Below are positions 604-44,145 of a stretch of 64,000 nucleotides of DNA, piece by piece. Numbering within the stretch: position 1 is the stretch's first letter; every line of letters begins with the position of its first letter. Source of the DNA: Rhodoblastus sp. 17X3 (lineage in GTDB: Bacteria > Pseudomonadota > Alphaproteobacteria > Rhizobiales > Beijerinckiaceae); contig NZ_JASHHX010000003.1 of NCBI RefSeq assembly GCF_030056575.1, positions 62,001 to 126,000 on the forward strand. The letters are read 5' to 3'. A program made the translations under genes and the position numbers. Under the pieces are notes generated by a model. That model made no database searches and was not told the origin of the DNA. It worked only from the letters and a program-made list of their open reading frames with translations.

Positions 604-3600
604 TCAGGCCTTGATGTTGATCCCGGCAAAGAGATGGTAGTTGCCGCCGATAAGGTCGACTGCCAACAAGCTGGCGCTCGTTTGGCTGAGCGCCCCGCTG
701 GTGGCGTTGGCGAACACCAACGTCTGGTTGGAGTGTGGGTCATAAAGCCAGGCGACGTCGTGAGCGGGCACCAGTTGGCTGGCGCTGCTCAGCCCGCCGT
801 ACACGCCAGTCACCCCCGCAATCTGTGAAAAATCGAGCAGATCGTTGACCGAGCCATGCTGGCCCGTGGCGCTGAACCCCGCAATCGTGTCGTAGCCAGC
901 CGGCGTCGAGTCGCCTGGCGCCCGATAAACGAATGTGTCGGCGACTGTATGCCCCAGGACATTCATTGCGTCGGCGCCGCCGCCAGCGGCGATGGTGTCG
1001 TCGCCCTGCAGGGCGACGATGGTGTCATTGCCGCCGCCCGTCGTGATGACATGCCGTCCCGTTCCTGCGGCGGTCACCTTCAGGGCGCCGCTGTCGCTTC
1101 CCGCGGCGAGATCGCCGCCAATGGTGACGGCGGCGGCGCCGCCGGTCAGCGTCAGGATTTCGCCCTGCGTCATCGCGCCAGCGTTGATCGTGTTGGCGCC
1201 GCTTCCGGTGGCGATCGACAGCGCGGCGACGACGCCCGTAGTGACGTTCAAGCCGCCCGAGACCGCCGTGGCCGCGAGATTGCTGCGCAGACCAGTGACG
1301 ACAAAATTCGCGCTGCCGACAAGCGTCAGGGCAATGTTCATCCCCATGGCGGCGGCGTTGACCGTCAGGGTTCCGGCATTGCCATCGTTGACGCTCGTCG
1401 CTCCATTGCCGACGATCACAGCGGCCAAGCCGGCCGCGTTCGCACCGAGCGTCACATTGCTGGCGCCGGTTAGCGCCAGATCCTGCACATTATAGACCCG
1501 GGCGAAGTCGGCGTCGGTAAGCGTCGCCGGCGCTGCAAGCATGATCGTGTCCGTCCCGCCGTTGCCGGTGATCGCGGCAGCAGCCGCGAGAGCCGACTCC
1601 GTGGCGAAGCTGAAAACGTCATTGCCCGGCGTTCCCTCGTAATAAGGCGCGGAGAGAACGCTGGTGTTGCCGGCCGCGTCGGTGGCCGTGACCTGGTAAT
1701 TGCGGACGAGGCTGTTGTTCTCGCCGGTCGCAAAGGTCCAGACGCCGTTTTGGCCTGCTAATGTCGTATTGAGTTTGGCTCCGCCGTCGTAGACCGTGAC
1801 CGTGCTGCCCGCCTCGGCGTTTCCGGTCAGGCTCCAGACGTTGCCGGCGTAGGCCGCGCTGGTGATCGACGGCTGAGGCGGTTGAGACGCGTCGACGGTG
1901 AAGCTGAAAGGCTCGCTCGTCGTTGTGTTGCCGGCCGGATCGATCGCGATCGCCGATATCGTATAGGACTGGCCATTGACCAGACCTGCCATCTTATAAC
2001 TCCAGGACCCGTCGGGCGCGACCATGACGGGAACCGGCTCGCCTGCTCCCGCCCCAGAGCTCGACGCCCCGATATTGGTCGGTAGCGTGAGCTCGACAAT
2101 ATCGCCTGGATCGGCCTGGCCGGTGAGAACGGTCGAGCCGTCGCTGAAATGTGCGGCGTTGATGTAGTTGACGCCGTCGGGGCCGACGACGATCGCGCTG
2201 TCGGAGATCGCGCTCTCGGTCGGCGGGGTTGTGTCGACGGTGAAGCTGAATGCGGCGCTCGTCGCAATATTTCCCGCCGGGTCGATCGCGGTCGCCGTCG
2301 CCGTGTAGGACTGGCCATTGACCAGGCCCGCCAAAGTGTAGCTCCAGGATCCATCTGGCGCGACCGTGGCAAAAGCCGCCTTGCCCGCTCCCGCGCCCGA
2401 ACTCGACGATCCGATATTGGTCGGCAAATTGAGTTCTACAATGTCGCCAGCCTCGGCCTGGCCGGTCAGAGTGGTCGAGCCGTTGTTGAAATGGTTGGCG
2501 TTGATGTAGTTCTGCCCGTCCGTCCCCACCGTCACTGCGCTGTCCGAGATCGCGCTCTCGCTCGTCGTCGTGTCGACGGTGAAGCTGAAGGGGTCGCTCG
2601 CCGCGACATTGCCGGCGGCGTCGATCGCGACCGCTGTCAGCGTGTAGGACTGGCCGTCGGCGAGGCCCGTCAACGTATAGCTCCAGGATCCGTCCGCGGC
2701 GACCACTGGATAGAACCTAAACGTGTTGCCCCCGCCTTCGGATAGATTCCAGCCCGGCGGGCCGGAAAGCCAAACCTCGTCGCCTGGATCGGCCTGGCCG
2801 GTGAGAACGGTCGAGCCGTCGCTGAAATGTGCGGCGTTGATGTAGTTGACGCCGTCGGGGCCGACGACGATCGCGCTGTCGGAGATCGCGCTCTCGGTCG
2901 GCGGGGTTGTGTCGACGGTGAAGCTGAATGCGGCGCTCGTCGCAATATTTCCCGCCGGGTCGATCGCGGTCGCCGTCGCCGTGTAGGACTGGCCATTGAC
3001 CAGGCCCGCCAAAGTGTAGCTCCAGGATCCATCTGGCGCGACCGTGGCAAAAGCCGCCTTGCCCGCTCCCGCGCCCGAACTCGACGATCCGATATTGGTC
3101 GGCAAATTGAGTTCTACAATGTCGCCAGCCTCGGCCTGGCCGGTCAGAGTGGTCGAGCCGTTGTTGAAATGGTTGGCGTTGATGTAGTTCTGCCCGTCCG
3201 TCCCCACCGTCACTGCGCTGTCCGAGATCGCGCTCTCGCTCGTCGTCGTGTCGACGGTGAAGCTGAAGGGGTCGCTCGCCGCGACATTGCCGGCGGTGTC
3301 GGTCGCGACTGCAACCAATGTATAGGACTGGCCGTCGGCGAGGCCCGCCAATGTATAGCTCCAGGATCCGTCCCCGGCGACAATTGGATAGACCGGCAAC
3401 GCTTTGCCCGCGCCGGCGCCACTGCTGGACGAACCTATCGGTGTGATGAGCTCGACAATATCACCCGGATCGGCATGGCCGGTCAGGGTTGTCGAGCCGT
3501 CGCTGAAATGGGCGGCGCTGATGTAGTTCCGGCCGTCCGCGCCCGTTGTCACCGCGCTGTCGGAGATCGCGCTCTCGGTCGGCGGAGTAGTGTCGACGGT

Positions 3601-4212
3601 GAAGCTGAACGTGTCGCTCGTCGCCGTGTTTCCGGCAAGGTCAGTCGCGGTGGCTGCCGCGGAAACGGTCTGCCCGTTGGTCAGACCTGTCAGCACGAAG
3701 GCCCAAGTTCCGTCCTCCGCCACCGTCGCCGCCTGAGCCGCGCCCCCGTTGACGCTGACCACGACGGTGTCGCCAGCTTCCGCCGCGCCCGTCAGCGTGT
3801 TCGTCCCATTGTTAAAATTGGCGGCGTTGAGGTAGTTCTGGCCGTCTGTCCCGGTCATCACCGCGATGTCCGATATTGCGCTTTCGTTCGTGCGAGTGTC
3901 CAGGACCACAATATTTCCGGCGACCGGAGCAAAGGCGCCTTGGGCATTGGGATTGAGCTGCAAGCTTGAGATGATGGCGCCGTCTGCGAGCGAAGACAGA
4001 TCGACAACGTATCCGGTCTGGCCGCCCGTGATATCGACTGTCACGCTCTGGTTGTTGATGTCAGTGAAGGTCACCACACCCGCATAGGTCGGATCAAGCC
4101 CGGTGATCGTGAACGGGACCGCCGCCTCTTGCGCAAGGCCGATCGGTGTATCCAAACCATCGTCAACCGAGAAGTTCAGGCCGGTGAAATACATATAGGC
4201 GTCGATGGCCAT
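604..4212 (-). CDS. Large secreted Ig-like repeat protein with RTX-like C-terminus
   Basis: A 1202-residue surface or secreted protein, probably adhesive. After an N-terminal domain of about 120 residues come six Ig-like modules of about 105-120 residues, each starting near ESAISD and ending FSFTVDT, as in BapA-type adhesins. The C-terminal third has Gly/Ala-rich repeats, the RTX-like motif GGGNDTIVALQGDDTI and a final domain typical of type I secretion substrates. There is no N-terminal signal peptide, which fits C-terminal type I export, although no transporter genes lie nearby. The ATG at 4212 is preceded by GGGAGGA at good spacing, so it is preferred over an upstream in-frame start at 4359. 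A large internal duplication is described separately. The gene lies at the island's left end. Confidence 0.8.
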   Translation of the reverse strand: MAIDAYMYFTGLNFSVDDGLDTPIGLAQEAAVPFTITGLDPTYAGVVTFTDINNQSVTVDITGGQTGYVVDLSSLADGAIISSLQLNPNAQGAFAPVAGNIVVLDTRTNESAISDIAVMTGTDGQNYLNAANFNNGTNTLTGAAEAGDTVVVSVNGGAAQAATVAEDGTWAFVLTGLTNGQTVSAAATATDLAGNTATSDTFSFTVDTTPPTESAISDSAVTTGADGRNYISAAHFSDGSTTLTGHADPGDIVELITPIGSSSSGAGAGKALPVYPIVAGDGSWSYTLAGLADGQSYTLVAVATDTAGNVAASDPFSFTVDTTTSESAISDSAVTVGTDGQNYINANHFNNGSTTLTGQAEAGDIVELNLPTNIGSSSSGAGAGKAAFATVAPDGSWSYTLAGLVNGQSYTATATAIDPAGNIATSAAFSFTVDTTPPTESAISDSAIVVGPDGVNYINAAHFSDGSTVLTGQADPGDEVWLSGPPGWNLSEGGGNTFRFYPVVAADGSWSYTLTGLADGQSYTLTAVAIDAAGNVAASDPFSFTVDTTTSESAISDSAVTVGTDGQNYINANHFNNGSTTLTGQAEAGDIVELNLPTNIGSSSSGAGAGKAAFATVAPDGSWSYTLAGLVNGQSYTATATAIDPAGNIATSAAFSFTVDTTPPTESAISDSAIVVGPDGVNYINAAHFSDGSTVLTGQADPGDIVELTLPTNIGASSSGAGAGEPVPVMVAPDGSWSYKMAGLVNGQSYTISAIAIDPAGNTTTSEPFSFTVDASQPPQPSITSAAYAGNVWSLTGNAEAGSTVTVYDGGAKLNTTLAGQNGVWTFATGENNSLVRNYQVTATDAAGNTSVLSAPYYEGTPGNDVFSFATESALAAAAAITGNGGTDTIMLAAPATLTDADFARVYNVQDLALTGASNVTLGANAAGLAAVIVGNGATSVNDGNAGTLTVNAAAMGMNIALTLVGSANFVVTGLRSNLAATAVSGGLNVTTGVVAALSIATGSGANTINAGAMTQGEILTLTGGAAAVTIGGDLAAGSDSGALKVTAAGTGRHVITTGGGNDTIVALQGDDTIAAGGGADAMNVLGHTVADTFVYRAPGDSTPAGYDTIAGFSATGQHGSVNDLLDFSQIAGVTGVYGGLSSASQLVPAHDVAWLYDPHSNQTLVFANATSGALSQTSASLLAVDLIGGNYHLFAGINIKA
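2102..2618 (-). repeat. Internal 517-bp direct repeat, copy 1 (partner 2780-3296)
   Basis: This segment is identical on reading to 2780-3296, an offset of 678 bases or exactly 226 codons. It covers parts of two adjacent Ig-like modules. Absence of silent differences points to a recent in-frame duplication or gene conversion within the adhesin gene. Confidence 0.8.
2780..3296 (-). repeat. Internal 517-bp direct repeat, copy 2 (partner 2102-2618)
   Basis: Second copy of the 517-bp direct repeat inside the Ig-like protein gene. Identity breaks at both edges (2779 and 3297), where neighbouring modules are only similar. The length is a multiple of three, so recombination between copies would remove or add two modules without a frameshift. 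Confidence 0.8.
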
Positions 4213-4917
4213 GTGATCCTCCCACTCAATAGATCGTATCGCAAACTCCATGTGCGACCGATCGACGAGAATGGTTGCCTGTCGGACTGGCGCGATTTTA
4301 AACCTGACCCGTCGGCCACGGCAGCGAATGTCGACGATTGCAGGGTCGCGACGGATCAATTTCCCGTGAAATTAGCCGTCGGATTTCGATGAGTAATTGC
4401 TCCGCTCCAGCCCCCATCCATAAGTGACAGCGCAGTCGGCCAGAACGAACAGGCTTCCAATCAGTTTTTTGACGCTAACGATTTCTGGCGGCTCGATAGG
4501 CATCCGGGGGAACGCCGAGATGAAAACTCGAATTACAATGACGTGATACAATTTTTTAATTCACGCCCCGCCCAGCTTGTCGCTCTCCTCGCCCGGAAAA
4601 CTAGCGGGTAGGAACCAACTGCCCAACAGTTGCCGCGCACAATCAGCAACGCGGCCGCCGCGCAATTCGATCCAATCCCTGTTATCCTTCGTTCCAATTC
4701 CGGCGACATAATATGAAATTCCGAATTTATTGGCGCACCGACCGCTTTCCGGCTCATTTCTTCCCTTTGGCCTGCGGCCGCTTTCCGCCCGGCAGGGACC
4801 TTGCCGGCGACATCGGCATCGGTCCGCTTCCCGCCGATTTCAGCCTGATCTCGACCGCCAAAGCAAAGTCGCCTCTCGGCTCGTTTCGGTCTTAGGACAT
4901 GCAGGTGCCGGCGGCGG
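4213..4917. other. 705-bp intergenic region without a recognisable gene
   Basis: The region separates the Ig-like protein gene from the AraC-type regulator. Open frames exist (for example plus 4713-4895 and minus 4533-4928), but they have no recognisable domains, no convincing ribosome-binding sites and an arginine-rich, shadow-like composition. The part near 4520-4570 is AT-rich and probably holds the adhesin promoter further right. Nothing else is supported. Confidence 0.4.
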
Positions 4918-5985
4918 CTATCGCACACTCAGCGGACGTTCCGATAGTTCATTGCTTGCCGGGTGGTTCAGTGTCTCCGGTCGCGGGATTTGAAAGTGCG
5001 CGGCGCGCCATTGCGTCATGGAGCAGCCGAAGCGCTCTTTAAACCATCGCGCTAATGCACTTTGCGCAGAAAAGCCAAGAATCTCAGCCACGGCCTGCAG
5101 GGAGCGGCCGCAGTCCTCGATCAATCGAAGCACTAGCGCCGCGCGCTGCTCGTCGAGAATGTCCGAAAACGTTGTGCCGCAAGCTGCTAACCGCCGGTGG
5201 ACCGTACGCCGGTCACAGCCCAAGTGCCCGGCGATAATCTCCGCCGAGCAGCGCCCGGTCGGCAAGAGCGCGGCGACAAGTTCGCGCACCTTGCCCGCCA
5301 TGTCGGGCGAACCCGCGGCGATGGCCTCTACATAGTTCTGCGCGTAACGCGCCATCAATGCGTCGGCGGCCTGCATCGGCCGATCCATGTCCGAAATGGG
5401 GCACACAATCGCGTCGTACTCCGCGCCGAAGGCGACGTTGCAGGCAAAAAATCGTCGGTACGTCTCTCGGTTCCTGGGCGGCGGATGGGTGAATTGCACG
5501 TCTAGCGGTCGCCAGCCCGGACCGAGAAAAGCGCTGAGGATGCGATACAAGACACCAAGAGTGAGTTCGATCGCTTGGCGCGCAGGCGCGGCTTGACCGA
5601 ATAGCATCGTAGGTGTGATCGCGACAAAATCGCCGTGATCTTCGATGCGAATATTGAGGGATTCATTATGGATATGAATGTAACGGGCGATCGCCTCCAT
5701 CGCGGCGCCAACGGTTGGCTGCTCTCGGACAACGAGCGCGACCGGCCCAAGATTCGAGAGACCTCCGCGCTCTGCGAGCCTTAATCCGAAATCATCGATT
5801 GCAGCCGCAGCGGCGGAAGCTTCGAGCAGGCGGCCCACGCCGCCAGCAGCGATCTTGATATCAGGGGCCTGAAGGCTCGTCGGTGGCAACCCCGCATTAC
5901 GCAGCATCAGCGCCGGATCGATGCCTACAGAGCGCGCCACGTCGGCAAAATGCGTGAGACAACCGCTGCGGATTAGATCAGTCAT
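4918..5985 (-). CDS. AraC-family transcriptional regulator
   Basis: A 355-residue regulator with an N-terminal sensor domain of the arabinose-binding-like AraC subgroup (about residues 10-190). The C-terminal AraC HTH (about residues 225-330) includes LQAVAEILGFSAQSALARWF, the second helix-turn-helix. It is divergent from the SDR gene and separated from it by a 134-bp promoter region. It probably controls the catabolic genes that follow and itself. The ATG at 5985 is preferred; a TTG at 6012 would add nine residues but has no better ribosome site. A 39-bp motif lies 22 bases upstream of this start and recurs before the next transcription unit. Confidence 0.85.
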   Translation of the reverse strand: MTDLIRSGCLTHFADVARSVGIDPALMLRNAGLPPTSLQAPDIKIAAGGVGRLLEASAAAAAIDDFGLRLAERGGLSNLGPVALVVREQPTVGAAMEAIARYIHIHNESLNIRIEDHGDFVAITPTMLFGQAAPARQAIELTLGVLYRILSAFLGPGWRPLDVQFTHPPPRNRETYRRFFACNVAFGAEYDAIVCPISDMDRPMQAADALMARYAQNYVEAIAAGSPDMAGKVRELVAALLPTGRCSAEIIAGHLGCDRRTVHRRLAACGTTFSDILDEQRAALVLRLIEDCGRSLQAVAEILGFSAQSALARWFKERFGCSMTQWRAAHFQIPRPETLNHPASNELSERPLSVR

Positions 5986-34152: not shown

Positions 34153-34335
34153 ATGTCCGGTTTCCGCGAGCTCGCGCATCGCTGGCTCTCCGCGCTTTTT
34201 CGCGCCACGACCAATCGCGCCTTCGACGTCGCCGAATTCTGCTTTGCCCGCGCCAAGGATCACGACGCGCGGGCGGAGCGGCGCCGCGCCCGGCGCATGC
34301 TGGAGCGCTCGCAAGAGCCGGGCGCCAACCCATGA
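34153..34335 (+). CDS. Hypothetical basic phage protein (60 aa)
   Basis: A small Arg-rich helical protein (AKDHDARAERRRARRMLERS). No family is recognised. It overlaps the next small gene by 4 bp. Confidence 0.5.
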   Translation: MSGFRELAHRWLSALFRATTNRAFDVAEFCFARAKDHDARAERRRARRMLERSQEPGANP

Positions 34336-34457
34336 TCTTCCTGCGCTGGATCTATCTCAAAGGCGGCCGGCGCGTGGCGGTGTTTTCGCTGCGGCGCCGG
34401 AGAAATCCCGACGGGATCTGGCGCGCCATTCAAATCGAGTTTCGGAGGGTGGCGTGA
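34332..34457 (+). CDS. Very small phage ORF (41 aa)
   Basis: An open frame from ATG 34332 to TGA 34457 giving a basic peptide (LRWIYLKGGRRVAVFSLRRR). It overlaps the preceding stop (ATGA) and the following GTG start (GTGA), so it fits exactly into the translationally coupled chain. That placement is the only evidence; no homologue is recognised. Confidence 0.5.
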   Translation: MIFLRWIYLKGGRRVAVFSLRRRRNPDGIWRAIQIEFRRVA

Positions 34458-35269
34458 GCGAACTGACCGAACTGTCCATCGACGGCTTCACGCCGCCCGC
34501 GCCGCCGGAGTCCGGCCCCGCGCCGCAGCTGCAATGGATCAAGCTGGCCCTGCTGCGGGTCGATCGCGCCTATCAGCGCGATATCCTCCGCAATGGCCAA
34601 AGGCAGATCGCCCGCATCGCGGCGGCGTTCGACTGGGCCTGCTTCGCGCCGGTGATCGTCGCTCCGATCGAGGGCGGCCTTTACGCCATCATCGACGGCC
34701 AGCACCGCTCCACCGGGGCGCTGCTGGCCGGCAAGCAGGAGGTTCCCTGCCAGATCGTCATCGCCGACGCCCGCAAGCAGGCGATCGCCTTTTCCGCGAT
34801 CAATGGCGCGGTGACGCGGATGTCGGCGCTGGCGACGTTCCGCGCCGCGCTGGCCGGCGGCGAGCCGGAAGCGGTCGAGATCGACCGGCTGGCGCGCGAG
34901 GCCGGCATTCGCGTCCTCGGCTATCCGCTCGCGGCGGCTCAGATGAAGCGCGGCGACTGCACCTGTCCCCAGGAGCTGCGTTCGCTGTTCCGCCGCTTCG
35001 GTCCCGCCGACCTGTTGCGCGCCTTTGTGGCTTTGTCCGCCTCGGGCGGCGAGATTCGCGGCTATGTCTCGCCCCCTGTCCTGCGGGGGCTGTGCGCGCT
35101 GTTCGCGGCCAAGCCGCTCGGGATCGACGTGATCCGCGTCTTTTTCCGGCGCGTCGATTTTCCGTCCGTGGTGACGGAGGCGAAACGTCGCGATGGCTTT
35201 TCGCTCGCCGATGAAATCCGCGCGGTGCTGGCGGAGAAGATGGTTCAGGCCGCGCGGAGGGCTTCCTGA
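34454..35269 (+). CDS. ParB/DGQHR-like phage protein
   Basis: A 271-residue protein with a ParB/sulfiredoxin-like core. The motif IDGQHRSTGALLAG (about residue 79) is the hallmark of DGQHR/ParB-like proteins and is preceded by VDRAYQRDI (about 36-44). ParB folds bind CTP or act as nucleases; this phage subgroup is uncharacterised. Its GTG start overlaps the preceding stop. It lies before the primase, suggesting a replication or segregation role. Confidence 0.75.
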   Translation: MSELTELSIDGFTPPAPPESGPAPQLQWIKLALLRVDRAYQRDILRNGQRQIARIAAAFDWACFAPVIVAPIEGGLYAIIDGQHRSTGALLAGKQEVPCQIVIADARKQAIAFSAINGAVTRMSALATFRAALAGGEPEAVEIDRLAREAGIRVLGYPLAAAQMKRGDCTCPQELRSLFRRFGPADLLRAFVALSASGGEIRGYVSPPVLRGLCALFAAKPLGIDVIRVFFRRVDFPSVVTEAKRRDGFSLADEIRAVLAEKMVQAARRAS

Positions 35270-35526
35270 TGGATGCGGGGCAGGAAGTTCAATTCGAGCC
35301 AGTTGGCCGGCCGCAGCCGCTCTTTGGCTGGATCCTCCCGTCCTTTGAGGATCGTATTGTCAACGACGTCCGCGCCGGATTTTCTTTCGAAGCGATCTGC
35401 GCGCGGCAGACATGCGACGCCGAAGTTGCGCTGGCCGTGATCGCGCGGGCGCGCGCACATGACTTTCTGACCGAGGACGAAGCTTCCTTCCGTGGCGTCG
35501 GCAGGGAGGCCGCAGCATGCGCCTGA
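35269..35526 (+). CDS. Hypothetical phage protein (85 aa)
   Basis: A helical protein. The central FSFEAICARQTCDAEVALAV could be an HTH, since it resembles the weak HTH of small phage regulators, but this is not firm. It overlaps the neighbours by 1 and 10 bp. Confidence 0.55.
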   Translation: MDAGQEVQFEPVGRPQPLFGWILPSFEDRIVNDVRAGFSFEAICARQTCDAEVALAVIARARAHDFLTEDEASFRGVGREAAACA

Positions 35527-36707
35527 GCGACGCCCAGATCGAGGAGCTCAACGCCCGCGCCGATCTCGGCGCGCTGGCCGCTCAATTTGGCGCGACGTTG
35601 CGGAAATCCGGCCGCAACCTGATCGGCTCCTGCCCGCTGTGCGGCGGCGGCAAGCGCGCGACGCGGTTCGAGATCAAGGACAATGGCGCGCTTTGGCTGT
35701 GCGCGGTCTGCGCCGAGGGCGGCGACGCCCTGGCGCTCGTCCAGAAGGCGCGCGGCGGCGATTTCCGCGCGGCGGTCGAATTCCTGGGCGGCGCGGCGTC
35801 GCTCTCGGCCGAGGACGAGGCGCGGCTGGCACGCAAACGCGCCGCCGAGCAGGAGAAGCGCGAAAAGGCCGCCGCCTTCTTTCGCGCGCAGGAAATCGCG
35901 CGGGCGCAAAAGCTCTGGGATCACGCCGAACTGTTCGGCCGCGAGGGCGTCGAAAGCTATTTGCGGGGGCGGGGCTGCCTGCTGCCCGGGACGGCCGACA
36001 TTCGCGGCGCGCGCGCCGTGCCTTATTTCCATGGCGAGACGGTTGACGAGCTCGGGCGGCGCTCGCCGCGCGTGCTGATGCGCGGTCCGGCCATGGTGTC
36101 CGCAGTGCGCGACAATGACGGCGCCTTCTGCGCCGTCCATGTGACCTATCTCGACGCCTCGCTGACGCGGAAAGCCAAGGTGAGCGACCCGGACGGCGGC
36201 GAGGCGCTGCCGGCGAAAAAGGTGCGCGGCGCCAAGGCGGGCGGCCATATCGTGCTTCGCCTGCCGGAAGATCCCAAAAGGCTGTTCTTGGGCGAGGGGA
36301 TCGAGACGGTGCTTTCGGTCGCCACGGCCCTGAAGCGCGAGGGCCGGATGCGCGGCTCGGACGCGTTCTGGTCTGCGGTCGATCTCGGCAATCTCGGCGG
36401 CAAGGCTGTTTCGAGCGTGGCGCATCCGACGCTGAAGACGCCCGGCGGGAAGGCGCAGCGGGTTCCCGGCGCGGAGCCGGATTTTTCCGCGCCGGGGATC
36501 GCTCTTCCCCCCTGCGTGACCGAGCTGGTCCTGCTCGGCGACGGCGATTCCGACGCCTTCACCACCGGGCTGGCGATGCAGCGGGCGGCGGCGCGCTATG
36601 CCCGGCCCGGGCTGTCGATCCGGATCGTGATGGCTCCGGCGGGGCTGGATTTCAACGATTTATTGGTGAGCGCGGCGAGCGCCCAAAGCAAGGAGCACGC
36701 GGCATGA
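35517..36707 (+). CDS. Phage primase (CHC2 zinc finger plus Toprim)
   Basis: A 396-residue DnaG-like primase without a helicase domain. An N-terminal zinc finger has Cys39, Cys42, Cys62 and Cys65 (GSCPLCGGG, WLCAVCAEGG). The Toprim domain has the glutamate in LFLGEGIETVLS and the acidic pair in LVLLGDGDSDAF, and ends GLDFNDLL. It would make RNA primers at the phage origin, together with the DUF5906 helicase downstream. Its stop overlaps the next start by 4 bp. Confidence 0.88.
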   Translation: MRLSDAQIEELNARADLGALAAQFGATLRKSGRNLIGSCPLCGGGKRATRFEIKDNGALWLCAVCAEGGDALALVQKARGGDFRAAVEFLGGAASLSAEDEARLARKRAAEQEKREKAAAFFRAQEIARAQKLWDHAELFGREGVESYLRGRGCLLPGTADIRGARAVPYFHGETVDELGRRSPRVLMRGPAMVSAVRDNDGAFCAVHVTYLDASLTRKAKVSDPDGGEALPAKKVRGAKAGGHIVLRLPEDPKRLFLGEGIETVLSVATALKREGRMRGSDAFWSAVDLGNLGGKAVSSVAHPTLKTPGGKAQRVPGAEPDFSAPGIALPPCVTELVLLGDGDSDAFTTGLAMQRAAARYARPGLSIRIVMAPAGLDFNDLLVSAASAQSKEHAA

Positions 36708-37114: not shown

Positions 37115-37371
37115 GCGCGGATGATTTTTTCACACAGGCTGACCAGGCCGTGCGCGGCGCTGTGGCCGATCTGTGCGCCAAAGCCGGAGCCGAGGGAACG
37201 GAGCCGGAAGATGTCTGCGCGACGCTGCTGTCGATCCTCGTCGCCTGCGCCTTCGACGTCGCTGAGGCGACGCCTCTGCCGTCAGACCGGGCGCTGCAGT
37301 TGGTGTGCGACATCGCGACGCGCCATGCCGCGATCTGCGCGGCCGAGGAAGGCGCGGTCGGGAATGCGTGA
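37111..37371 (+). CDS. Hypothetical phage protein (86 aa)
   Basis: An acidic helical protein (EPEDVCATLLSILVACAFDV) of unknown function. ATG at 37111 overlaps the preceding stop (ATGA). It overlaps the methyltransferase start by 8 bp. Confidence 0.6.
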   Translation: MSADDFFTQADQAVRGAVADLCAKAGAEGTEPEDVCATLLSILVACAFDVAEATPLPSDRALQLVCDIATRHAAICAAEEGAVGNA

Positions 37372-37936
37372 GATTTGGCCTTTCGATCCGCTGCGCCCGT
37401 TCTCTTTCGACGTGATCGTCGCCGATCCGCCATGGTTGTTCGATCTGCGCTCGGAGAACGGCGAGGGCAAATCGCCTCAGGCGCATTATGATTGCATGTC
37501 GATCGAAGATATCGCCGCGATGCCTGTCGGCGATCTCGCGCGTGGCGACTGCTGGTTGTTTCTCTGGACCTGCGCGCCCTCGCTCGATCGCGCATTCGAC
37601 GTTCTGCGCGCCTGGCGCTTCACCTATTGCTCGCGTTTTTCCTGGGCGAAGAAGACCGTGAACGGGAAGAAGCGGCTCGGCCCCGGCTATGTCGTTCGGA
37701 CGCTCCACGAGGACATTCTGATCGGGAAGATTGGCGATCCGCGCCGCGCCAAGGCGCTCAACTCGCTGTTCGACGGCGTCGCACGCGAGCACTCGCGCAA
37801 GCCGGATGAGTTCTTTTCGCTGATCGAGGGTTTCGCGCCCGACGCTTTCCGGCTCGACCTGTTCTCGCGTCAGAACCGCCCGGGCTGGACCAATTGGGGC
37901 AATGAGGCGACAAAATTCGATGAGGTCGCGCCTTGA
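37364..37936 (+). CDS. MT-A70 family adenine N6-methyltransferase
   Basis: A 190-residue enzyme with the MT-A70 catalytic motif VADPPW (residues 17-22) and the SAM-contacting C-terminal part ALNSLFDGVAREHSRKPDEF. Members methylate adenine N6 in DNA or RNA. A small, single-domain form is typical for phages, where it likely modifies phage DNA against restriction. The stop overlaps a TTG start of the helicase gene (TTGA). Confidence 0.85.
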   Translation: MREIWPFDPLRPFSFDVIVADPPWLFDLRSENGEGKSPQAHYDCMSIEDIAAMPVGDLARGDCWLFLWTCAPSLDRAFDVLRAWRFTYCSRFSWAKKTVNGKKRLGPGYVVRTLHEDILIGKIGDPRRAKALNSLFDGVAREHSRKPDEFFSLIEGFAPDAFRLDLFSRQNRPGWTNWGNEATKFDEVAP

Positions 37937-39490: not shown

Positions 39491-39782
39491 TGGTCCAACC
39501 TTTGCCGGTTTGGTCCAACCTCAAAAACAAGGTTGGACCAAAATAACTCTTTTATTTCAATGCTTGGTCCAACCTGTCCAACCTGTCCAACCTTTTTGCC
39601 TCATGTGTGCGCGCGCGCAGGCGGGCGCGAAACCCGGCGAAGAAAAATTCCAGAAAGTTGCTTTATAGGTTGGACAGGTTGGACAGGTTGGACCAGATAT
39701 AAAAAAAGCAAACGAAAACAAGTGCTTATTCTGGTCCAACCTTTGGTGTTTTGAAAAGTCATAGGTTGGATAGGTTGGACCA
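39491..39782. repeat. Iteron-like repeat array, probable phage replication origin
   Basis: Twelve copies of a 9-10 bp motif, TGGTCCAACC or its shortened form TGTCCAACC, lie in both orientations. Plus-orientation copies start at 39491, 39511, 39565, 39575, 39584 and 39732. Inverted copies start at 39531, 39668, 39677, 39686, 39764 and 39773. The trimers at 39565-39592 and 39668-39695 are perfect 28-bp inverted repeats separated by 75 bp. The gap between helicase and the next gene is AT-richer than its surroundings (TATAAAAAAAGC at 39698). No gene fits. Position beside primase and helicase suggests the origin. Confidence 0.75.
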
Positions 39783-39795
39783 AAAGGGGCGAGCG

Positions 39796-40161
39796 ATGGG
39801 CGAAATGGAAAAGGCGCTTTTGCAGGTCGTGAACGGGCACGCGTTTCTGACGTGGCGCGGATTTGAGACGGGCGCGGCCGGTGCGGAATTTCAGAATCTG
39901 CGGAAGGCGTGGCCTGATCACATCGGAGAGTTCAGCCGCGCACTGGACTGGCTGCAATGCGTTCCGCCGCGCCTGACGGTCAACCGCGACTTCGACAGTT
40001 ATCGGCTTAAACACGCCGCCGAGCATTGGGCGGGCGGCTATGTCAGCAACGGCGCGCTGATCGCCGCCGCGCTGCATCTCGGGTTTGTCGTCGAGCCGAT
40101 CGCCGGGTCGCTCAACGCCTACATCTCCGTGTCCGGCGAAACCAAATGGCCGAAATCCTGA
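39796..40161 (+). CDS. Hypothetical phage protein (121 aa)
   Basis: A protein with no recognised family. It has WRGFETGAAGAEFQNLRKAW near residue 20 and a helical C-terminal half (HAAEHWAGGYVSNGALIAAA). It begins right after the last repeat of the array with GGGGCGAG before the ATG and ends 10 bp before the next gene. Confidence 0.6.
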   Translation: MGEMEKALLQVVNGHAFLTWRGFETGAAGAEFQNLRKAWPDHIGEFSRALDWLQCVPPRLTVNRDFDSYRLKHAAEHWAGGYVSNGALIAAALHLGFVVEPIAGSLNAYISVSGETKWPKS

Positions 40162-42067: not shown

Positions 42068-42406
42068 ATGGCGCGAGGCGGCAAACGTCTTGGCGCGGGG
42101 CGGAAACCGGGATCGGTGAACAAGCGCTCGCGCGTGACATCGGCCAAGGTCATAGCAGCTGGCGACACGCCGCTGGACATCATGCTGGCGTCGATGCGCC
42201 AGCTGTTTAAGGAAGAGAAATTCGCGGAGGCGGCGATGATCGCTCAGCGGGCCGCGCCGTATGTCCATCAGAAATTCACCGCAACGCAGGAGCCGGCCAA
42301 GCGCCACGCCGAACAGGTCGTCCAGAGCGACCTATTCGGCCCGCAGGCGACGCAACCGGCAGCGGAAAATAACGCTCCTGATGAGTTCGACAAGTTCCTG
42401 CATTGA
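42068..42406 (+). CDS. Probable small terminase subunit
   Basis: A 112-residue protein beginning ARGGKRLGAGRKPGSVNKRS, a basic signature seen in phage proteins directly before large terminase genes. The rest is helical. A small-terminase role is inferred from the position and the 4-bp overlap with the large subunit; a DNA-binding domain is not evident. Confidence 0.55.
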   Translation: MARGGKRLGAGRKPGSVNKRSRVTSAKVIAAGDTPLDIMLASMRQLFKEEKFAEAAMIAQRAAPYVHQKFTATQEPAKRHAEQVVQSDLFGPQATQPAAENNAPDEFDKFLH

Positions 42407-44145
42407 GCGGCTGGGATCTCTCTTGCCGGGATTGGGAGCAGCGCCTTCGCGAAGGTCGCTCCCTCGTTCCTGATCTTCCGCTCGATCACGCTGCGGCCGA
42501 GCGCGCGGTGCAGGTCTTCAACCTACTTCGGCTGCCCGACGTCCAGGGCAACCCGCTGCTGGCCGACGCCGCGGGCGAATGGTTCCGCGACATCGTCCGC
42601 GCCATCTTCGGCTCGTGGGACGAACAGGCTCAGATCCGTCACATCCGCGAGCTCTTCGCTCTCGTCGGCAAGAAAAACAGCAAGACCACCTATAGCGCGG
42701 GCCTCGGCCTCACCTGGCTGCTGCTCAACAAGCGCCCGAAAGCATCGGGCATCATCGTGGCGCCGACGCAGGACATCGCCGACATCGCCTTCGAAGCCGC
42801 GCAGGGCATGATCCAGCTCAACCCGAGCCTGCGCGACGTCCGGCTGCATGTTCAAAACCATCTCAAGAAGATCACCAACCGGATGACGGGTGCGACGCTC
42901 GAGATCTTCACCTTCGATTCGAATGTGCTTACCGGGCAGAAAGCCGCATTCTGGCTGCTAGACGAGCTTCACGTTATCGGCAAGAAAGCGAAAGCAGCTT
43001 CCGCGGTCGGCCAGCTGCGCGGCGGCATGGTGTCGATCCCGGAAGCGTTCGGGATCATCATCTCGACGCAATCGGACGAAGCGCCGACGGGCATTTTCAA
43101 GTCGGATCTCAACGCGGCTCGCGGCATCCGCGACGGGCGTATCAAGACGAGCAAGACGCTCCCGGTGCTCTACGAGTTTCCGGACGCCATCGCCCGAGAC
43201 GAATCGCAATGGAGCGATCCTAAGAACTGGCCAATGGTGATGCCCAATAACGGGCGCTCGATCACCGTGGCGCGCATGCAGGAATCGCGGGCCGAAGCCG
43301 AGACCAAGGGGCGCGAGGAAATCATCCGCTGGGCCTCGCAGCATCTGAACATCCAGATCGGCGTCGGGCTCAAGACCGATAACTGGCCCGGCGCGCAATA
43401 CTGGCAGCGAAACGGCGACAAGAGCCTCACGCTCGCCGAGATCATCGAACGCTGCGACCTGCTGACGATCGGCGTCGACGGCGGCGGCCTTTACGATCTG
43501 CTTGGCTTCTCGCTGCTCGGCCGAGAAATTTACGACGCTCTCGTTCCGGTTGAGCCGGGCTCCGGCGATTATGAGGTCAGGCAAAAAACCCGCTGGCTGC
43601 ATTGGGGCTGCGCCTGGTTGCATCGCGGCGCGCTCGAGCAGCAAAAGGACGTGGCGCCGAAGTTCCTCGAACTTGAGGCGACTGGCGACCTTACCATTGT
43701 CGACGCGATGGACGATGCTTTCGAAGAGGTCGCGGATCTCATCGACGAGATCAACCAGTCCGGAAAACTCGCCAAACTCGGCTTCGACCCGGTAGGGGTC
43801 AAGGAAATCATCGATCGGATCGCCCGGCGCGGAATTTCCCAGGAGAGCGGGCAGGTCGAGGGCGTCAAGCAGGGCTACACACTGCAAGGCACCATCAAGA
43901 CCGTCGCCAACAAGCTGGCCGATGGCGACCTGACCCATTGCGGCCAGGAGCTGATGGCGTGGTGTGTCGGTAATTGCATGCTCAAGGGCTCCGATAACGC
44001 GACGATGGTCACGAAGCAGGCCAGCGGCACGGCCAAAATCGACCCGGTGATGGCGCTTTTTGACGCCGCGCATCTGATGCCAGCCGACGGCGCCGCCAAC
44101 GAAAGCATTTATTCGGAAGATCGCGGCCTCGTCGTTTTTGGCTGA
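42403..44145 (+). CDS. Terminase large subunit
   Basis: A 580-residue packaging ATPase-nuclease. The Walker A region is LFALVGKKNSKTTYSAGL (deviant, Lys-rich) near residue 86, and Walker B is AFWLLDELHVIGKK. The C-terminal nuclease has aspartates in LTIGVDGGGLYDL and DPVGVKEIIDR. It drives DNA into the prohead. The start is TTG at 42403, overlapping the preceding stop. It belongs to the HK97-type/P27-like terminases. Confidence 0.9.
   Translation: MSGWDLSCRDWEQRLREGRSLVPDLPLDHAAAERAVQVFNLLRLPDVQGNPLLADAAGEWFRDIVRAIFGSWDEQAQIRHIRELFALVGKKNSKTTYSAGLGLTWLLLNKRPKASGIIVAPTQDIADIAFEAAQGMIQLNPSLRDVRLHVQNHLKKITNRMTGATLEIFTFDSNVLTGQKAAFWLLDELHVIGKKAKAASAVGQLRGGMVSIPEAFGIIISTQSDEAPTGIFKSDLNAARGIRDGRIKTSKTLPVLYEFPDAIARDESQWSDPKNWPMVMPNNGRSITVARMQESRAEAETKGREEIIRWASQHLNIQIGVGLKTDNWPGAQYWQRNGDKSLTLAEIIERCDLLTIGVDGGGLYDLLGFSLLGREIYDALVPVEPGSGDYEVRQKTRWLHWGCAWLHRGALEQQKDVAPKFLELEATGDLTIVDAMDDAFEEVADLIDEINQSGKLAKLGFDPVGVKEIIDRIARRGISQESGQVEGVKQGYTLQGTIKTVANKLADGDLTHCGQELMAWCVGNCMLKGSDNATMVTKQASGTAKIDPVMALFDAAHLMPADGAANESIYSEDRGLVVFG

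Follow-up and report, generated by a model that had tools for sequence, protein, structure and literature searches.

Within a 64,000-nucleotide stretch of the Rhodoblastus sp. 17X3 genome (contig NZ_JASHHX010000003.1, positions 62,001–126,000; hereafter the window), 12 units of the 9-bp sequence GTCCAACCT lie between the gene for a DUF5906 helicase and the next gene, spanning positions 39493–39780 (Table 1). Eleven of the units are exact, one carries a single mismatch and six lie on each strand, confirming a sequence-only reading that had reported twelve repeats, six in each orientation, in 292 bp. A longer form, TGGTCCAACC, is complete in seven of the window's 12 units; its first copy starts 19 bp beyond the stop codon of the helicase gene (39471), rather than the 20 bp reported, and its last copy ends 13 bp ahead of the next gene's ATG at 39796, as that reading had it. 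The A-rich tract it noted at about 39698 is also present. The 8-mer GTCCAACC occurs in 11 exact copies in the window, every one within the array, compared with a mean of 1.2 copies, and at most two per 292 bp, in 200 first-order Markov resamplings of the window, and a 17-bp tandem of two units, allowing up to two mismatches, has one other site in the 4.18-Mb genome, there with two mismatches.

The units follow the order ++-+++---+--, which is its own reverse complement and would divide the array into two mirrored half-origins, each composed of two outer units, an inverted unit, an AT-rich spacer and a trimer. The trimers form a perfect inverted repeat, as had been recognised, although its arms are 29 nt long (39565–39593 and 39667–39695) and 73 nt apart instead of the 28 bp and 75 bp given earlier. 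This perfect 29-nt repeat could point to an RNA element whose arms fold in the transcript, but there is no Rfam match at gathering score, the central distance between the halves varies from 46 to 137 bp in relatives, the inner spacer lacks coherent pair covariation and the unit sequence tracks the helicase, as described below, which makes such an element extremely unlikely in our judgement.

Table 1. Features of the array and of the surrounding genes, in window coordinates.
Feature	Position	Strand	Remarks
ParB-like DUF6551 protein	34244..35269		starts early operon; phrog_1033 E 2e-15
Primase gene	35517..36707		same operon as helicase
MT-A70 methyltransferase gene	37121..37936		overlaps helicase start
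DUF5906 helicase, proposed initiator, 512 aa	37933..39471	+	PF19263 E 1.4e-22; phrog_1156 DNA primase E 9e-42
Iteron 1	39493..39501	+	
Iteron 2	39513..39521	+	
Iteron 3, inner inverted unit of putative left half-origin	39530..39538	-	
Left 28-bp AT-rich spacer	39539..39566		77% AT excluding outer 3 bp
IHF-like site AATAAAAGAGTTA	39544..39556	-	1 mismatch to WATCAANNNNTTR; equalled by 200/5000 spacer shuffles
Iterons 4–6, left trimer	39567..39593	+	starts 39567, 39576, 39585
Central 73-bp spacer	39594..39666		45% AT; dyad axis near 39630
Iterons 7–9, right trimer	39667..39693	-	starts 39667, 39676, 39685
Right 40-bp AT-rich spacer	39694..39733		11–12 bp above usual 28–29
IHF-like site AAACAAGTGCTTA	39716..39728	+	1 mismatch; mirrored orientation; equalled by 118/5000 shuffles
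Iteron 10, inner inverted unit of putative right half-origin	39734..39742	+	
Iteron 11, AGGTTGGAT	39763..39771	-	one mismatch
Iteron 12	39772..39780	-	
Large terminase gene, downstream	42403..44145		phrog_9 E 1e-93

An exact scan for GTCCAACCTGTCCAACCT returned 72 viral contigs. L030, L046, L049 and L077 share the exact unit order of the window; L046 and L049 are near the window phage (helicase identity 98%), and L030 and L077 have a VapE helicase in place of DUF5906. The gene 5′ of the array encodes DUF5906 in 14 of the 72 loci, and 13 of 20 further flanking proteins scanned are VapE-like, other flanks holding a superfamily 2 (SF2) helicase with an intein (L007), a Prim-Pol protein (L044) and a terminase-like protein (L027); the array flank scanned gave no Pfam match in L010, L042, L048 and L053. 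The strict two-sided pattern was also found in GTDB contigs from six genomes (two Neoroseomonas, Caldovatus, a Bosea metagenome-assembled genome (MAG), a Rhizobiales MAG and Luteimonas). Sampling 397 genomes from the host's order and 398 from its phylum turned up the 17-mer in 4 and 2, respectively, with the window's own genome counted in both. A blastn search of 50,697 phage records with the 34-bp trimer region gave five short in-gene matches (E 1–4), which we judged to be chance.

Arrays of at least five units numbered 51 (45 from viral contigs or the window, six from GTDB contigs), or 37 once near-identical ones were removed. Among these 37 deduplicated GTCCAACC arrays, the central pair is convergent in 32 and divergent in none, and seven have exactly self-complementary orientation strings, against 0.73 expected (maximum 4) from 2000 unit-orientation shuffles. 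Of the 55 inner minus-to-plus gaps in GTCCAACC arrays that do not exceed 60 bp, 30 measure 28 or 29 bp; additional peaks lie at 37–38 and 47–49 bp and correspond to about 29 bp plus decayed units.

Two of the flanks mentioned above are of separate interest. In L007, the array (1971–2243) lies near the SF2 (ResIII) helicase gene (2600–5236), which has Hom_end_hint and homing-endonuclease domains, and no DUF5906 match was found within the available piece. In L044, the array (2434–2614) adjoins the Prim-Pol protein, which has a weak DUF3987 match, instead of DUF5906 or VapE, which raises the possibility that a third helicase family uses this iteron as well.

The GTCCAACCTGTCCAACCT loci also bear on two readings in which a different protein binds the array. 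One is a parS-like partition site bound by the ParB-like DUF6551 protein, whose gene lies within the same operon, and centromere arrays are likewise made of clustered repeats; the ParB-like query, however, matched none of the 72 loci, many of which are short pieces, and the iteron bases covary with helicase residues, leaving this reading highly improbable. The other is an operator or regulatory array for the downstream genes, bound by a repressor or helix-turn-helix (HTH) protein. No sigma-70-like promoter or terminator-like site was found at the array, and among the 72 loci, again in short pieces, the gene directly 3′ was matched in two, the next one in seven and the repressor and HTH queries in none; although the array is intergenic, with a gene beginning 13 bp behind it, and an initiator could also autoregulate through its iterons, we think an operator very unlikely.

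The same locus was then compared in other lineages. A DUF5906 profile built from the window helicase, 11 array-adjacent helicases and two from a helicase search was run against viral contigs, and after six near-duplicates had been dropped from the best 80 of 110 relatives, 74 distinct helicases were left. A repeat array above the 99% shuffle level and within 500 bp 3′ of the stop codon is present at 66 of these 74 loci, with a strict tandem dyad in 48 of the 66. As controls, an array was detected inside the gene in 5 of 74 and on the 5′ side in 13 of 53; the 13 5′-side matches are GC-rich words, and none forms a tandem dyad. For VapE, the profile came from 13 array-linked helicases and five from phage records, and 30 of 95 loci were dropped; 53 of the 65 distinct loci remaining (42 of 52 among helicase-profile-only picks) have an array within 800 bp that scores above every one of 15 shuffles, the sole control in this set. 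Our conclusions draw on these 74 and 65 loci. Exploratory sets comprised 62 hand-picked loci, 49 of them taken from the best 80 of at least 595 relatives in another helicase search, as well as 57 loci, 38 of them with the inverted, tandem pattern.

The iterons of the DUF5906 set are diverse (GTCCAACC, GTCCCACC, GTCCTACC, GTCCGACC, GTCATAGG and others), with 28 distinct 9-mers in 53 anchored arrays (eight of the 66 arrays were without a usable central dyad, and five of 58 iterons were not anchorable), while the layout of inverted unit, 28–29 bp AT-enriched spacer and trimer is constant across lineages and 63 of 98 inner gaps measure 28 or 29 bp. A conserved layout with changed repeat sequence at the same locus, which the sequence-only reading had proposed as a check, is thus seen in many lineages of both the DUF5906 and VapE sets. 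Repeats of other sequence are also present in the records of Marinobacter phage PS3, Listeria phage LWP01 and Corynebacterium phage Adelaide and, one gene further on, in Pseudomonas phage Haddon. Expanded arrays of 14–18 copies of CTGGGACA occur 3′ of the VapE gene in L169, L171 and L172.

Comparison of iteron bases with helicase residues pointed to the C-terminal domain of the protein. The AlphaFold2 model of the window helicase (mean predicted local distance difference test (pLDDT) 77.6) ends in a C-terminal winged helix at about residues 405–475 (helices 411–422 and 429–443, strands 448–472), in which T434 is placed within the predicted recognition helix 429–443, C411 opens helix 411–422 and K449 lies at the wing. 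Across 54 DUF5906 helicases (53 loci and the window; 337 columns), residue 434 is the top column for iteron base 7 (z 11.9, next 6.0), with T434 accompanying C7 in 34 of 34 cases and a non-C base accompanying other residues in 16 of 20. Among 27 disjoint nearest pairs, residue 434 ranks first of 337 for base 7 (uncorrected p 3.4e-5) and residue 411 first of 337 for base 5 (uncorrected p 2.8e-5), both p values being about 0.01 after correction for 337 columns. Residue 449 shows a tendency at base 5, which is C in 16 of 21 cases with Arg and A or T in 9 of 10 with Lys.

VapE and DUF5906 are related AAA+ families (profile comparison, E 1e-7, probability 94%), and 51 VapE loci (40 found by helicase profile, 11 otherwise; 194 columns) were aligned separately, residues being paired between families by hhalign of the C-terminal domains, in which VapE residue 447 corresponds to window residue 449. 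For base 7, the highest-scoring column is again the VapE residue homologous to 434 (z 10.5, next 5.2); for base 5 it is residue 447 (z 17.0, next 7.9). Thr or Met at the 434 position goes with C7 in 37 of 37 cases, a count that includes L174 and L120, two of the five loci (L103, L120, L133, L170, L174) retained although their iterons are probably out of register; other residues go with non-C in 11 of 14. At 447, base 5 is A or T in 25 of 27 cases with Lys and C or G in 22 of 23 with Arg. The VapE pair test is weaker, with 447 ranking second (p 2.4e-3) for base 5. The window's T434 and K449 occur with C7 and A5, as this code predicts; its C411 accompanies C5 (8 cases) more often than A5 (4) in the DUF5906 set. 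A single-sequence fold for L077 was uninformative (pLDDT 34.5). Matching covariation in two families at homologous positions would be difficult to account for if the helicase did not bind the iterons, and we therefore infer that it does so, through its C-terminal winged helix. A ParB-like or HTH protein encoded in the operon, which the sequence-only reading had named beside the helicase for gel-shift tests, is not needed as binder.

Plasmids speak to what such binding might be for. The Roseomonas 9.7 kb plasmid and Vibrio vulnificus pMP1 (7.6 kb) each have a significant dyad array behind DUF5906 (0 of 200 shuffles do as well), and DUF5906 is the only annotated replication-like gene of both in the PLSDB gene table, which is incomplete. 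Repeats in pMNOD07 are weaker (33 of 200 shuffles do as well), no array was found behind the DUF5906 gene of Rhizobium pTH2c, and E. coli pEC224_4 carries a RepB gene in addition to an array. Plasmid iterons also act in copy control, and the covariation speaks to binding only, so a helicase-bound array could instead serve fork restart, copy control or superinfection exclusion. We hold such a non-initiation role to be very improbable, since two small plasmids without another annotated replication-like gene have these dyads and the precedents of Staphylococcus aureus pathogenicity islands (SaPI) and staphylococcal cassette chromosome (SCC) elements concern an origin or putative origin; small plasmids that combine DUF5906 with a dyad make an origin likely. 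Three small plasmids of 7.6–9.8 kb (L198, L199, L200) have DUF5906 as sole annotated replication-like gene, and the record shows no replicon type for them; they are perhaps an uncatalogued plasmid replicon type.

The AT-rich spacers were scored against the consensus of integration host factor (IHF), WATCAANNNNTTR, a string that 15 listed papers contain along with the name of the factor. In 39 deduplicated halves, seven spacers match it perfectly on the expected strand (0.02 in shuffles) and 12 with at most one mismatch (0.29), compared with none and five on the other strand. In a helicase-first set of 67 spacers, which overlaps the former in several contigs (for example L011/L204, L038/L208 and L056/L235), 10 are perfect on the expected strand (shuffles 0.04) and 26 within one mismatch (shuffles 0.65, maximum 3), and the other strand has no perfect match and none within one mismatch in the 67; the spacer cores of this set have an AT content of 0.57, compared with 0.36 for the loci. 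When a spacer profile derived from GTCCAACC arrays was applied to other iteron families, it picked out their spacers too, such as that of PS3, placing 14 of 29 candidates above the 99% shuffle level when the better of two orientations is taken. In the host, IhfA and IhfB pass the NCBIfam cut-off, and an HU-like protein falls short of it. A bending protein other than IHF is possible at the spacers, because their GC-rich versions fit IHF poorly. A hairpin in the inner spacer was rejected for want of coherent pair covariation. The same genome (L185) has a second IhfA-like protein just below the NCBIfam cut-off (100 versus 111 bits).

Taken together, these comparisons indicate that the array is very probably the replication origin of a prophage, with the adjacent DUF5906 helicase as its initiator, in the manner of SaPI Rep/ori. 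This supports the earlier suggestion that the array is a phage origin whose initiator is some early protein, and identifies that protein as the probable product of the adjacent gene; recognition of the iterons by its C-terminal domain is supported by the covariation. Several observations weigh against this interpretation. The helicase profiles came mostly from array-linked proteins, so the loci found may favour array carriers; the DUF5906 loci are not a fully neutral sample for this reason. Eight of 74 DUF5906 and 12 of 65 VapE loci fail the array test, and a significant array is absent in two of five plasmids examined. Missing repeats in syntenic phages, which the sequence-only reading had named as evidence against an origin, are not the case at most loci, but four of eight annotated phage records (MP1412, FP1, DLP4 and VarioGold) show no clear array directly behind the related helicase. 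In the VapE pair test, the 434 position ranks only 13th of 194, and the C-terminal domains of DUF5906 and VapE compared alone give hhalign E 3e-4 at a probability of 39%. The window's two IHF matches are by themselves modest (4% and 2.4% of shuffles do as well), its right spacer is 40 bp long, and most spacers are more than one mismatch from the IHF consensus (27 of 39 and 41 of 67). Cumulative GC skew across the window reaches a maximum rather than a minimum near 41–43 kb and falls after about 47 kb, and so fails to support an origin at the array, although for an integrated prophage skew says little.

Under the origin interpretation, residue 434 of the C-terminal winged helix would read base 7 and residues 449 and 411 would read base 5. 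Host IHF could bend each spacer, folding the inner inverted iteron back onto the trimer, so that helicase subunits would gather at each half and then melt the AT-rich spacer. The helicase might load as two rings facing opposite ways, and the operon primase would start bidirectional synthesis after induction. More broadly, we lean towards the view that DUF5906 and VapE belong to a single large class of initiators, in phages and plasmids, that share a mirrored, 12-site, IHF-assisted origin, in which a shifting residue code (434 with base 7; 447/449 and 411 with base 5) sets the iteron. If so, many code shifts would have produced private origin specificities, and origins, perhaps also the replication compatibility of prophages, would be readable from protein sequence. 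As far as we know, most temperate phages have no mapped origin; here the helicase gene would point to the origin and a few residues to the iteron, a rule testable in many phages and small plasmids, and it raises the question of why the architecture is kept so rigid when origin specificity keeps changing.

Literature searches found no description of a 12-site dyad, IHF-like half-sites or a two-residue code, and among the 20 papers listed, of 96 that contain two or more of five iteron strings, none is on phage origins by title and none contains the 16-mer. Initiator helicases with downstream iterons are, as a kind, already known. Published work describes, for SaPI Rep, an iteron origin directly downstream of the gene that is recognised by the C-terminal domain, apparently with two hexamers and, for SCCmec Cch2, a C-terminal domain that binds direct repeats downstream of the gene at a putative origin with three 5-nt AAGTG iterons (PMC7581432). 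As in SaPI, short iterons lie directly 3′ of the helicase gene in the window and would be read by its C-terminal domain, and the window model resembles both PriRep1 with double-stranded DNA and the SaPI5 primase-helicase in fold. In Foldseek, its best match is 6k9c, the phage NrS-1 primase-helicase (E 2e-16), with 7pds, titled as PriRep1 with dsDNA, at E 2e-8; VapE relatives match 7pds, which is of SaPI origin, at E 1e-103. Unlike in SaPI, the proposed window initiator is DUF5906 and not VapE, although some same-iteron relatives do have VapE, and the 12 sites of the window array are arranged as mirror images, with a fixed inner spacing and with IHF-like sites. A SaPI is also a satellite dependent on a helper phage, whereas the window region has its own large terminase gene and therefore looks like a prophage rather than a SaPI. 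Cch2 is similar in being an initiator helicase with downstream repeats, and differs from the dyad of 12 nine-bp units here. Phage P4, with its alpha protein and ori/crr, offers an initiator helicase with two separate iteron regions. Iteron plasmids such as R6K and pSC101 have direct iterons, a Rep protein, DnaA boxes and an AT-rich region with an IHF site; the DnaA box TTWTNCACA does not occur in the window array. What the window array shares with these plasmids is the placing of iterons close to AT-rich DNA that holds an IHF-like site; it differs from them in having units in both orientations and a helicase as their proposed reader.
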